A stretch of DNA of 64,000 bases, from positions 1 to 64,000 of the forward strand of contig NZ_RYFF01000005.1 of assembly GCF_004138165.1 (NCBI RefSeq), written 5' to 3'. Positions 5,032-12,700 of the stretch are shown here, piece by piece. The position numbers were made by a program, and so were the translations under genes. Each line of letters starts with the position of its first letter. Position 1 is the stretch's first letter. A model generated the notes under the pieces. That model saw only the letters and a list, made by a program, of their open reading frames with translations, was not told the origin of the DNA and searched no databases. The stretch is from Candidatus Chloroploca sp. Khr17 (GTDB lineage Bacteria > Chloroflexota > Chloroflexia > Chloroflexales > Chloroflexaceae).

Positions 5032-5102
5032 AGAAAAAGCTACTCAAGCCAGGGTATGCTTCAGGTCACTCTCTTGAGTATATAGCAACCTTCGGGAATT
5101 TG

Positions 5103-5440
5103 TGACGGCTCCCAAGCGTAAACGCTTGGGCTTCAGAGACTGCCGCCCCAGTCTCGTGCTCCATGGAGCACATGGGTGGGGGGTGGCCTTTGAATGCACT
5201 TGCCTGTCCCGGCTCTCAGGTTGGCCCCTTCCGCCGAACCAGTGCGCCACATGACCTTGAACCTTTTACCGAGCAGAGGCTTGTCCGCTCGAACCGGCAA
5301 GGCTCACTTGGGTAGGTGCGAACACCCATGCGTATGATAAGACACGTACGCCTGTTCGTCAAGGGGCTGAAGCCGCTGAAGTGCGTGAAGGGCTCATATC
5401 CCAGCGCTGAAGCTGCTGGGCTTTACGCCCTATTTTCGTA
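5103..5440 (-). mobile_element. Non-autonomous IS200/IS605-like element, possible omega-RNA carrier
   Basis: Read on the minus strand, this gene-free stretch begins with hairpins CCCAGCAGCTTCAGCGCTGGG and CAGCGGCTTCAGCCCC next to an ATGA. It then has a consensus promoter (5362-5334), a transcript that would open with a GGTG-TTCG-CACC hairpin, and ends with the hairpin CCCAAGCG-TTTA-CGCTTGGG and GTCAC. Subterminal hairpins, a right end in CAC and no inverted repeats are typical of IS200/IS605-group elements. No transposase, TnpB or IscB frame is present. The ATGA at the left end and the structured leader recall HEARO/omega RNAs of IscB elements, but that identification is from memory and unverified. 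Confidence 0.45.
5334..5362 (-). promoter_or_regulatory. Sigma-70-type promoter inside the IS200/IS605-like element
   Basis: On the minus strand TTGACG (5362-5357) and TATCAT (5339-5334) are separated by exactly 17 bases. Transcription would start near 5327 and run through the structured part of the element. No protein gene lies downstream within it. Confidence 0.6.
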
Positions 5441-5474
5441 AACGCACCCTATGCGGGCTCTTCCTTGCCATTGT

Positions 5475-5501
5475 TTTTCGGCGGGCGCAGCCCGCCGAAA
5501 A
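5475..5501. other. Hairpin upstream of MFS gene
   Basis: TTTTCGGCGGG and CCCGCCGAAAA are perfect 11-bp arms around a CGCAG loop. It lies between the IS-like element and the MFS transporter gene and could end minus-strand or leader transcripts. Confidence 0.6.
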
Positions 5502-5576
5502 TATGGTATAGTCAAACCTAGAAATATTTGACTGAGCAGATACTGGGCACTTTTCTGTGCGCGAAGGAGGCGGCCT

Positions 5577-7064
5577 GTGACCCGCAGACGTGTCGTGCTG
5601 ATCACGCTTGGGGTGATGATGAGCCTGTTTATGGCTTCGATGGAGAGCACGGTGATTGCGACGGCCATGCCGACGATTGTGTCTGAACTCGGGGGCATCC
5701 AGAGTTACAGCTGGGTCTTTGCGATCTATATGCTGACCTCGACCACGGTGGGGCCGATCTTTGGCAAGCTGTCGGATCTCTATGGGCGTAGACCAGTCTA
5801 TATGGTTGCGATTGCCGTCTTTATGCTTGGCTCGCTCTTCTGTGGTCTGGCGACCAGTATGAGCCAGTTGATCGCGGCGCGTGCGGTCCAGGGTGTGGGG
5901 GCCGGTGGCTTGTTGCCGCTCGCTTTCATTATTGTGGGCGATATCTTTACGCTCGAGCAACGCACCAAGGTGCAGGGGCTCTTTTCGGGTGTCTGGGGCG
6001 TCAGTTCGATCCTGGGGCCATTGGTCGGCGGCTTTCTTGTTGACCGCGTGGCCTGGCAGTGGGTCTTTTGGATCAATTTGCCGGCGGCCCTCGTTGCCGC
6101 AGGCCTGGTCTGGATGGCCTGGCGCGGTGTCCCCCGCCCTGCAGGCGTGCGTCCTGCGATTGATTACGCTGGTGCGATCCTGTTGAGCATCGGGGTCGCT
6201 TCGTTGTTGCTCGGCCTCAATGAGCTTGGCAGCCTCCAGAGCAATGTCTTGCTAATGGTCGCTGTGGCAACGCTGACTGCACTTTTTCTCGTTGAACGCC
6301 GTGCCGAGGCCCCGATTTTGCCTCTCCACCTCTTTCGCTGGCGGCTCTTTGCCGTAGCCTGTGCGCACGGTGTGCTCGCTGGCTGGGTGCTCTTTGGCGG
6401 CATGAGCTATGTGCCACTCTTTGTCCAGGGCGTACTGGGGACGTCGGCGACACAGGCAGGCACAACGCTCACCCCGATGCTGCTTTCGTGGGTGCTGTCG
6501 AGCATCGTGGCGAGTCGGCTCTTGTTGAAGGTCGGCTACCGTACCTTGATTATCACCGGCATGGTCGTGTTTGTTCTTGGTGCTGGCTTGATGGCCCGCG
6601 TGAGCCCCACCACAACCCAGCTTGAGATCATGGTTGCGCTGAGTCTGATGGGCCTCGGGATGGGCGCTTCGATCCCTTCATTCCTGATTGCGGTGCAGAG
6701 CAGTGTCAACAAGCCCGATCTCGGCTCGGCAACGGCGATGCTTCAGTTTTCACGTACGATTGGCGGAACCTTCGGCGTTGCTGTGCTCGGTGCGATCCTT
6801 GCGTCGCAGTTGACGGCGATCCTGCTTTCGTATGGCCTCAGCCCGGAGGCAGTGCCCCTTGATGCCCTGATCGGCGAAGGTGCTACCGGTGCCGCCGAGT
6901 TGAGTGCGCAAGCCCGCGGTGCGCTCGCGCTGGCGATGAGGGCAATGTTCCAGACAACCTTTGTCGTCGCGGTGCTCGCGCTGCTGGTCGCCTTGCTCAC
7001 CCCACGTACCCAGATCCAGTCGTCTTCTCAACCCGATCCTGAGCACGCTATCACGGCCGATTGA
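5577..7064 (+). CDS. MFS drug exporter, DHA2 (14-helix) family
   Basis: A 495-residue integral membrane protein with about 14 hydrophobic helices. The loop after helix 2 has the MFS motif GKLSDLYGRRPVY (about residues 63-75), and helix 1 shows MESTVIATAMPTI, characteristic of DHA2 proton antiporters of the EmrB/QacA group. Helix 5 shows GLFSGVWGVSSILGPLVGG, the antiporter motif C. The GTG start at 5577 is fixed by an AAGGAGG box at 5564-5570. Likely exports amphiphilic drugs or metabolites; the true substrate is unknown. Confidence 0.88.
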   Translation: MTRRRVVLITLGVMMSLFMASMESTVIATAMPTIVSELGGIQSYSWVFAIYMLTSTTVGPIFGKLSDLYGRRPVYMVAIAVFMLGSLFCGLATSMSQLIAARAVQGVGAGGLLPLAFIIVGDIFTLEQRTKVQGLFSGVWGVSSILGPLVGGFLVDRVAWQWVFWINLPAALVAAGLVWMAWRGVPRPAGVRPAIDYAGAILLSIGVASLLLGLNELGSLQSNVLLMVAVATLTALFLVERRAEAPILPLHLFRWRLFAVACAHGVLAGWVLFGGMSYVPLFVQGVLGTSATQAGTTLTPMLLSWVLSSIVASRLLLKVGYRTLIITGMVVFVLGAGLMARVSPTTTQLEIMVALSLMGLGMGASIPSFLIAVQSSVNKPDLGSATAMLQFSRTIGGTFGVAVLGAILASQLTAILLSYGLSPEAVPLDALIGEGATGAAELSAQARGALALAMRAMFQTTFVVAVLALLVALLTPRTQIQSSSQPDPEHAITAD

Positions 7065-9718: not shown

Positions 9719-12700
9719 ATGGCTCCGCGCAGGCACACTCTTCTTCTCCTCACGGTCGTTGCTCTCGTCGTTGCTTCGTTTGGTCTGGTCACCCTCCTTC
9801 CCGCGCAGTCTGGTCGTTCCGAGGTGGTCTTTTTTGTTGACACCCTGGAAGATCTGGATGGTACCAATGGATGTGTGGAACCTGGCCCCGGTCGTACCTG
9901 TAGCCTCCGTCAGGCGATTGTGAGTGCGAATGCGCATCCAGCAAATAGTGATTATAAAGTCATTACCTTCCGTTATTTTACCGATGGCCCGCTCTCAACC
10001 GAGGGTGGCATTGTCCGGCTTGACCCCTTGAAGCCGGTGTTGCCCAAGCTTACGACGGATCGCGTTGAAATTATTGCGAACGATCTCTTTGGGATTCCCA
10101 AGATTCAGCTCGATGGCAATGGCCGCGACGTCGGTTTTCAACTCGCTGGCAATGAGGGGTTGATCCGGGGCCTGAGTCTCTATGGCTTTTCGGATTTTGG
10201 GATTGAGGAATTTCTTGGTTCGGCGATTTATATTACGGGCAATAATAATCGTGTCGAGCGCTCGTTTATCGGTGTCAATCCGGATGGACAGACGATCCCT
10301 GGGCGGCAAAATTTTAGTGGCGTTCGGATCGAGGGCAGTGCCACTGGCAATGTGATCGGTGGGGCCGGTGGGCCTGGTGTGGCGAATTATATCAGCGGCA
10401 ATACGCAAAATGGGGTCATTATTCGCAATGCCTCGGGCAATTTTGTCCAGAATAATTTCATTGGCATTGTACGTGAGAATCAGTCAACGACCCTGGTTGC
10501 GCGGGGTAATGGGCAGTATGGGGTGCAAATTGCCAGTATTAGCAGTAGCCTCAGTACCAATAATGTGATTGGTGGTACGAGCGCCGAACTCGCCAATGTG
10601 ATTGCGGATAATGGTCAGGCCGGTATTCTGCTGCGCGGTTCGGGTACGATTACGAATGCTGTCCAGGCCAATTATGTTGGTCTCGATAGCGCCAATAACG
10701 ATTTCAGGAATCGTGCCGATGGCTTGCTCCTTGAAGCTGGCGCACGCAATAACCTCATCGGTGGTTCGGGGGCGGCCCCGCTGGTCATCAGTAATAATGT
10801 CAACTATGGCATCCATTTGCGCCTCAATGGCGATCTCACGCGTGATAACGTGATCGCTGGGACGACGTTTATTGGAACCCGTACCGATGGGGTGACTGCC
10901 TTTGGCAATGGTCGCGGTGGGGTGCTGATTGCCCCCGGGGTCACCGGGACGCTGCTCCAGGGTGCGGGCAATAGTCTGCGTATTGCTGCCAATGCAGGCC
11001 CCGGGGTGATTATTGGTGGCATTGGTGAGCTGGCGGCCAATAATCGGATCGAGCAGGCGCTTATCGGCCTTGTGCCAGCCCCTGGCGGTTTCCAGGCTCG
11101 CCCCAATGCGCTTGGTGGGGTGGAGGTTGTCACCTCAACGACGACCCTTCTGTCCAATAATCGGATTGGCGGCAATACGACGAGTGGGGTGTCTATTGGC
11201 GCTGGTGCAACCGGTGTGACGTTGATGGGCAATATCATTACGGACAATAGCACCAGTGGTGTGGCGATCCAGCCTGATGCGACTGATGTAACGTTGATGG
11301 GCAATACCATCAGCGCCAATGCAACCTATGGGGTTCACGTTGGCGTTGGGGTTGAAGGTACGCGGCTCTTGGGCAATACGGTCGCTGATCAGGCCCTTGC
11401 TGGGATCTGGCTCGATGGGGCCAGCAATACAACGGTCATTACCAATACGCTAACCGGCAATGCCGCCGGTGGACTCGTCGTGCAGGCGGCCAGCAATACT
11501 ACAATTACCGAGAATGTCTTTGGCGCGAACGCTTCCTTCGGGCTGCGTGTCAGTGAGAGTATGACCACGACGGTTGGCCTCAATCGCGTCGGGTTGACGA
11601 TGGATACGCGCACTGCCCTTGGGAACCTCGGTACGGGTATCGAGGTCTTTGATGCGCAGACGACCGCGCTTACCAATAATTTTGTGGCGAGCAATGCTGG
11701 CGCTGGCATGGTGATTACGGGAACCAAGACCCGTGCGACGAATGTGCAAGGCAATGTCACTGGTTTGCTGCGTGATGCCGAAGGGTTTGCCCGTGTGGCG
11801 AGCCCCAACCTCGGGCCGCAGATCCTTGTCGCCGAGGGGCCGTATCTGACGTTGATCAGTGGCAATACGGTCGCGGGTGATAATGATCCGCTCACTGCCT
11901 ACCCTGGGATTGTGATTTCGGGGACGCAGACTTTCACCGCGACGGTTGAGGCCAATCGCATTGGTTTTGTGCCCACCGCACCACCCGATGGCGAACCCTT
12001 TCTTAGCTTTGGTCATAGCGAGGGCATTGTCGTTGAGGGGGCGCACTATGTCCAGATTCGCAATAATAATCGCATTCGTCGCAATGATGGGGCTGCAATT
12101 CGTCTCACTGATGTGATGTCGGCGACGGTGACTGATCATATGGCGGATCGGGCGATCTTTGAGAATGGCCGTGGTATTGTGGTGACAGGTACGTCGCAGT
12201 TTGTGACGCTGGCTCAGAATGAGCTTGTGGCGAACCGTGGTGATGCTATTGCGCTTGAAACGGTCAGCCAGATCGCTGATGTGCTGGTGCGTGAAAATAC
12301 GCTGCGGGCCAACGAGGGCTTTGGTATTCTGCTCAACGGCAATGTCCAGCGGGTGAAACTCCCTGGCAATCGGCTCAGTTTCAATCAGGCCGGGGGCATC
12401 AATTTTGTGCGTGCGGCTCCTTCGCCCGCCGCCACCAATCCGAATCATGATCTTGCCCCGCCTATCATCGATCTCACTGGCACTGATCCGATGCGCCTGC
12501 GCGTCTTTGATAATGGAACGTTCCAGGGACGGGTGATCACCGCGACGCTGGAACCCGGGGCTTTGCCCGCGCCCCTCGATGGCTGTGTCACCTGTACGAT
12601 CGAAGTTTTCCGCCCTGATCCTGAATCGCTCGGCCAGGGTCTGACGTCGCTTGTGACGGTCACAGCCTCGCCCGAAGGCCTCTATAGCGGCCAGTTCGAG

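Follow-up and report, generated by a model that had tools for sequence, protein, structure and literature searches.

A proteinless IS200/IS605 element of Candidatus Chloroploca and its structured RNA family, a candidate stand-alone guide RNA for TnpB

A short intergenic sequence bounded by hairpins and lacking a protein of its own raised the question of what it is, what could move it and what the RNA predicted from it may do. The window, the whole 64,000-nt stretch analysed, covers the opening 64 kb of contig 136 in the 6.38 Mb genome of a Candidatus Chloroploca relative (Chloroflexota, Chloroflexales), a filamentous photosynthetic bacterium. Two further genomes, those of Ca. Chloroploca asiatica (G001) and Ca. 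C. mongolica (G002), were used for comparison within the genus. TnpB is an RNA-guided DNA-cutting enzyme thought to be ancestral to CRISPR Cas12, and IS200/IS605 elements insert on the 3' side of a short fixed target, which they do not duplicate. A previous sequence-only reading of the locus had described a small IS200/IS605-like element that might be mobilised in trans and might carry an orphan omega or HEARO RNA.

Extent, ends and copies of the element

The element was found to be 336 bp long (window 5102-5437, minus strand, as are all of its features below) and to lie between a metallophosphoesterase gene (5031-4165, minus strand) and an MFS transporter gene (5577-7064, plus strand). The element described earlier at 5103-5440 was thus retained with corrected limits. 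These limits were set by the empty site in G002 of a copy on contig 116 (C116), which has the same ends and length and is 97% identical to the window element, and they are uncertain by 2 nt because AC is present at both junctions. A third copy on contig 148 showed 87% identity over 291 of the 356 query bases, and the same 356-base query gave 19 matches in the window genome, more distant and partial copies included. The single copy that the sequence-only reading had named as evidence against itself was therefore not what the search for further copies found.

The search for empty sites was also productive. The C116 site was exactly empty in G002, where the left flank ending in TTTAC joins the right flank in an ungapped alignment; the insertion lies 3' of TTTAC, with no target duplication. 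At the window's own site both G001 and G002 lack the element, but about 70 additional differing bases blur the junction, which is why the C116 copy was used to define the empty site. In the window, TTTAC flanks the left end at 5438-5442 and is the predicted TAM for the guide. The (T)TTAC flank at the 5437 end was conserved, with TTAC in 12 of 14 left-end flanks of type A (the subtype of the window, see below) obtained by pattern search, and the bases preceding it varied freely. ISHp608 reportedly has TTAC as its target.

The left end of the transposon is the one nearer the promoter, at 5437, and its right end lies at 5102, so that the earlier assignment of left was reversed. The ATGA said to stand next to the left end was absent, since neither ATGA nor TCAT occurs at 5080-5110 or 5430-5460. 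Hairpins near both ends had been noted correctly and are located at 5400-5420 (left) and 5111-5130 (right); the left end is common to tnpB elements, and the arms of the right-end hairpin were counted over orphan and tnpB ends together. The right-end terminal sequence AGCCGTCAC (5102-5110) was identical at the type A tnpB right ends, which were searched for with a pattern demanding AGCC[GA]TCAC. Beyond the right end, 16 nt of flanking host DNA (5086-5101) form the putative guide, by analogy with the ISDra2 reRNA as set out in the available part of PMC8612924.

Both ends of the element (about 80 and about 50 bp, 74-82% identical) matched elements carrying tnpB only, namely that of contig 9 (C9; 74% over 76 bases and 78% over 50) and that of C. 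asiatica contig C85 (78% over 79 bases and 82% over 50). Inside the 336 bases there are only short overlapping ORFs, none a possible TnpA, TnpB or IscB, in agreement with the earlier description. Overall, the sequence is a real non-autonomous IS200/IS605 element with precise ends. Being proteinless it would therefore be moved in trans, if at all, and this part of the sequence-only reading was borne out by the empty site and by the ends held in common with tnpB-only elements. Three Y1 transposase genes were found in the window genome, none of them, as judged by eye, with type A ends.

Two observations were made on neighbouring or related palindromes. Adjoining the element, window 5474-5502 holds a perfect inverted repeat (CGGCGGGC-GCA-GCCCGCCG) with runs of T and A at its flanks, terminator-like in appearance and mostly absent from both sister species. 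On contig 70 (L022), repeated GACCTGTGAGGTCT-type palindromes follow a Y1 transposase gene that belongs to a different subgroup, an arrangement which to us is reminiscent of REP-associated transposases.

The predicted RNA and its conserved 5' domain

A sigma-70-type promoter-like site, TTGACG-17-TATCAT, reads inward at 5362-5334 with the perfect spacing reported before. A scan of 5050-5560 gave two promoter-like sites against 0.2 in shuffles. Such sites were also enriched upstream of the RNA family described below, where 17 of 62 members had a site scoring at least 9/12 (1.6 expected from shuffles) and eight of 62 a site scoring at least 10/12 (0.1 from shuffles); the 62 are those left of 72 members after exclusion of short, N-bearing or identical upstream stretches. 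From the sequence, the RNA is predicted to begin near 5327 and to extend past the element's right end (5102). Its putative start carries the UUCG-capped hairpin noted earlier (GGGUG-UUCG-CACC, 5314-5327). A 228-nt stretch folded more stably than its shuffles (z -2.2; 5 of the 200 were equally good), and the z-scores of three relatives were -3.0, -3.5 and -4.4.

Nothing anywhere in the window reached threshold in Rfam 15, an outcome that the sequence-only reading had itself named as counting against it, and relaxed thresholds gave no meaningful match at the element locus. Over 12 loci, the relaxed search returned one CRISPR-DR28 match and three microRNA-like matches. The CRISPR-DR28 match (39.9 bits, gathering 35) lies inside a diverged family member at L063:1735-1758 and is possibly a chance palindrome.

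The core of the RNA is a 5' domain of about 70 nt (5253-5322) with two nested helices, P1 (5299-5306/5258-5265) and P2 (5285-5292/5269-5276), and a GGUUC...GGGUAAAA motif. In an alignment of 12 members (11 distinct; A2 and A3 use 12 of 13, a near-identical one being omitted), 98.9% of cells were paired and 8 of 16 pairs had two-sided changes. Two-sided cells numbered 23 against 5.9 in shuffles (0 of 500 as high), and further pair types were not above shuffles (148/500). The covariation tests for these RNAs, here and below, take no account of sequence relatedness.

A covariance model of this domain, R1, gave 97 hits within the taxonomic family, spread over 15 of the 41 genomes and numbering up to 13 in a single genome. 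Across the class it found 21 of 158 genomes in 12 genera, and across the phylum 16 of 400 evenly drawn Chloroflexota genomes, other families included; the class and phylum counts were obtained with stricter filters and are lower bounds, and the phylum-wide search misses G034 and four G036 places found in the family search. A pattern scan gave 21 stretches in Ca. Chloroploca, Oscillochloris and one Chloroflexales MAG, and a scan of viral contigs gave one contig with a family member. With filters on, the only matches of R1 in 37 sources lay in the window, one at the element itself and one of 13.9 bits, which is noise. With filters off, its best score in 10 tnpB loci was 10.8 bits, also noise. 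Of the 97 R1 places, 25 were not entered (some were kept as loci) and 72 members were examined. Overall, the structured RNA is a new family without an Rfam match.

The 3' half and its homology to tnpB ends

For 53 of the 72 members, the 3' half was homologous to the 3' end of tnpB, the right end of a tnpB element or both, as judged by blastn at E 1e-3 against the window genome's own tnpB elements; some tnpB match was present in 54, one of which (G003_C805) matched at the left end only. Four types were recognised. Type C (like C142 and C136b) comprised 35 members, type A, to which the window element belongs (like C9, C128 and C140), eight, type B (like C80 and C92) seven and type D (like C13) three. 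The homology of types B, C and D mostly starts some 60-120 nt short of the tnpB stop codon, though in one case as late as 42 nt, and that of type A just after this codon. The remaining 18 of the 72 members showed no tnpB-like 3' end at E 1e-3, and five of these have less than 100 nt left.

A complete tnpB beside the RNA was absent from 91 of 92 neighbourhood regions, each covering up to 1.5-1.7 kb on either side (54 at full length and 38 shortened by contig or locus ends). The sole examined member with a complete tnpB directly downstream is L246 (G070 contig 30), whose TnpB is 53% identical to that of C9. Four other tnpB matches near the RNAs were short and were read as the common 3' half or left-end sequence. 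Some family members were plainly decayed or shortened. In the type B orphans L052 and L075 and in the members on contigs 122 and 74 of the window genome the RNA scaffold is split by an AT-rich insert of TTTCATCTTTCC-like repeats, which the sister-species copies do not have. In addition, the member on the viral contig, L236 (IMGVR_UViG_3300036863_000049, about 9990-10042, minus strand), combines, as judged by eye, a type A-like middle with a type D-like right end, a possible swap of the 3' module.

The type C fold was built from 22 sequences (alignment A4, with one of the 23 chosen members set aside; A5 has 17). In it, one stem closes around six nucleotides that form a pseudoknot with the final 6 nt ahead of the guide junction, and two nested stems and the hairpin of the right end complete the structure. 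Stem 1, the terminal pseudoknot, stems 2-3 and the right-end hairpin are thus all present in type C. Over 38 pairs, pseudoknot included, 98.2% of 835 cells were paired and 19 pairs were two-sided against 10.6 in shuffles (0/500); the pseudoknot helix was 98.5% paired with three two-sided pairs. Outside type A (nine sequences set aside), the terminal hexamer was fully complementary, G-U allowed, to a stretch further upstream in its own RNA in 32 of 44 distinct members (from 46 sequences). In 1000 permutations the mean was 14.1 and the maximum 22, figures which come from related sequences and do not give a clean probability, and the right ends of 12 distant members in this test were picked by eye.

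Model R2, built from type C orphan RNAs alone, matched 5 of 11 tnpB loci, in each case at the 3' end: C142 (108 bits), C136b (94), C92 (42), C80 (39) and C161 (29.5). Among the 11 loci searched, it missed those of types A and D and one truncated gene, and it also missed the type D orphans. The window RNA was without a match to R2, the best score there being 9.2 bits at 5392-5521. R2 also matched the antisense strand of the genome's HEARO RNA (L064:2228-2359, minus strand; 21.8 bits, E 5e-5), perhaps through the GTCAGT...ACTGAC closing stem of HEARO.

Type A, the window's own subtype, is homologous to tnpB over the last 50-60 nt at the right end only. This part contains a hairpin with a GGGCGG loop (5136-5155) that is common to tnpB right ends and whose arms covary. 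Seventeen type A ends were counted over this and the right-end hairpin, seven of orphan type and 10 of tnpB type (six assigned by a scripted tnpB signature just upstream and four by eye). They make up A7, 17 of 18 ends with one omitted for its long insert; in the patterns used to search for them, loop and terminus were prescribed and the hairpin arms left free. Across these orphan and tnpB ends the two hairpins covary, with 95.3% of cells paired, 27 two-sided cells against 9.6 (0/500) and no more than seven two-sided pairs against 4.5 (12/500); pair types showed no excess (276/500).

A pseudoknot between GUGGCG (5245-5250) and the 3'-terminal CGUCAC is predicted for type A from the minimum free energy fold. 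GUGGCG was invariant in the seven aligned rows (A6), which were found with a pattern demanding it, and no covariation of the pseudoknot was seen among these seven sequences. The diverged copy L221 does not have this partner, and a competing pairing of GUGGC with GCCAC exists at the same place. The tnpB-like 50-60 nt of type A could be kept as DNA for TnpA. The omegaRNA case is strongest for subtypes other than the window's type A, which is the weaker one; for type A this reading is made because of the right-end match together with the common 5' domain, the promoter and the layout.

Interpretation and comparison with known systems

We consider it probable that the element is a non-autonomous IS200/IS605 element whose sole cargo is a stand-alone gene for a TnpB-type guide RNA (omegaRNA or reRNA). 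Such an element would be moved and excised by TnpA supplied in trans, TnpA being the weak link of this model. Transcription of the RNA would continue across the right end into the host flank, of which about 16 nt would become the guide, and a TnpB from another element would bind its 3' half in trans. A candidate partner is the C9 TnpB, which carries three TnpB-type Pfam domains. Its alignment to ISDra2 TnpB spans residues 2-364 of 369 and includes the D, E and D positions, taken to be the catalytic residues. After excision, the rejoined donor site (TTTAC plus flank) would be cut by the ribonucleoprotein of TnpB and orphan RNA and repaired from the sister copy, so that the element would be retained, as has been proposed for tnpB elements. 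In the available text of Karvelis et al. (PMC8612924), TnpB with a flank-derived guide is proposed to cut the rejoined donor site and so to restore the element from the sister copy, and the C116 empty site in G002 is a TTTAC-plus-guide site of this kind. In PMC10278001, TnpB is described as shortening its own mRNA from the 5' end. A stand-alone RNA gene has no tnpB message to trim, and the 5' domain may supply a defined, stable leader; it probably takes the place of the tnpB coding part, giving a stable leader and a defined 5' end without translation.

A wider version of this proposal is offered tentatively, as a possibility to which we give less than even credence: that stand-alone guide RNAs are modular across the phylum, one 5' domain being combined with interchangeable 3' scaffolds that match different tnpB lineages, so that proteinless elements hijack both TnpA and TnpB homing. 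The 5' domain would then be a new functional module that defines the 5' end, stabilises the RNA or recruits another protein, and the 3' ends would be swapped to follow whichever TnpB is resident.

The main competing explanation is that the element is an ends-only remnant (PATE or MITE) of a tnpB element, its RNA a functionless leftover and its hairpins of importance only as DNA for TnpA. A precedent is given in the accessible part of PMC7290912, where the Halanaerobium PATE joins 28 nt from the left end to the final 58 nt of tnpB plus the right end, and the clearly decayed or truncated state of some family members also fits. However, the 5' domain that covaries so strongly was not found in the tnpB loci tested and is present in several Chloroflexota families, promoter-like sites are enriched upstream of members, and in type C the internal stems and pseudoknot covary far from the ends, all of which makes a mere remnant unlikely. 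The same 5' domain, being the part that defines the family and is common to four 3'-end types, can instead be taken to point to an omegaRNA-like decoy or regulator that restrains the bound TnpB as a sponge or serves another RNA-binding protein, and in the portion of PMC10278001 available, part of the tnpB mRNA can inhibit cleavage by AmaTnpB. In type A, however, the 3' end is preserved as in tnpB elements right to the guide junction and the target/TAM lies at the opposite end, which is the arrangement that guiding requires, and we regard a decoy as rather improbable.

The HEARO half of the earlier proposal fared differently from the omega half, which stood and is best founded for subtypes other than that of the window. 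An orphan HEARO RNA acting with IscB could draw on the one iscB with HEARO in this genome. Against it, RF02033 had no match at the gathering threshold in the window, nor did the locus give one with E values of up to 10 allowed, the orphan RNA faces the right end with its guide on the 3' side as for TnpB, and the 3' halves of the family match tnpB; we give this explanation next to no weight. The search for iscB and tnpB elsewhere, also suggested earlier, showed tnpB elements of four types and a single iscB, adjoined by the genome's one HEARO, on another contig, and HEARO/IscB identity was rejected.

If the guide RNA reading is true, elements of about 340 bp that supply only a guide RNA can parasitise the RNA-guided homing of TnpB, and they would offer a natural way to test whether TnpB holds a transposon at its site, as has been suggested. 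It would also mean that an omegaRNA works uncoupled from the tnpB message, which resembles the passage of a transposon guide RNA to separate guide loci, a step through which CRISPR-Cas12 must have passed. Stand-alone omegaRNAs of natural origin, which are under no coding constraint, could in addition be guide scaffolds for small TnpB editors. No family of tnpB-less or orphan omegaRNA genes was among the literature matches listed, which came from a collection with few preprints and from searches in which the omega sign is unsearchable; this absence is weak evidence for the novelty of a tnpB-less omegaRNA family with its own promoter and 5' domain.

Among known systems, HEARO, the omegaRNA of IscB, is likewise a guide-type RNA of an IS200/IS605-like element; HEARO copies exist without a nearby ORF, and stand-alone IscB omegaRNAs occur in Ktedonobacter. 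However, it is a different RNA, with the guide at the other end and a model, RF02033, that the orphan RNA does not match. The palindrome-associated transposable elements (PATEs) of IS605, which are also found in Geobacillus, likewise consist of ends only with no complete ORF, and the Halanaerobium PATE, in the part of PMC7290912 consulted, also keeps the 3' tip of tnpB. In contrast to these, the interior here is a promoter and a conserved non-tnpB RNA domain, found in many genera. In IS607, a conserved structured RNA, the RAGATH-18-derived reRNA, is likewise the guide of a TnpB, but it co-occurs with an upstream tnpB as far as the available text of PMC11061315 describes it, whereas the orphan RNA is without an Rfam match.

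There is also a close likeness to the TnpB omegaRNA of ISDra2 from Deinococcus radiodurans. In the available parts of PMC10097598 and PMC8612924 that RNA has, like type C, a stem 1 enclosing the pseudoknot partner, stems 2-3, a right-end hairpin and a flank-derived guide. As given in the accessible portion of PMC10097598, stem 1 is formed by -116 to -111 with -91 to -86 and the pseudoknot by -105 to -103 with -5 to -3, stems 2-4 follow, and the part 5' of -116 is dispensable. The orphan RNAs differ in having no tnpB in cis, a promoter-like site of their own and an extra conserved 5' domain, and the scaffold of the window's subtype matches only partly. Overall, the element is PATE-like in mobility and distinct from HEARO, and most examined members of its RNA family are TnpB-omegaRNA-like in their 3' half.
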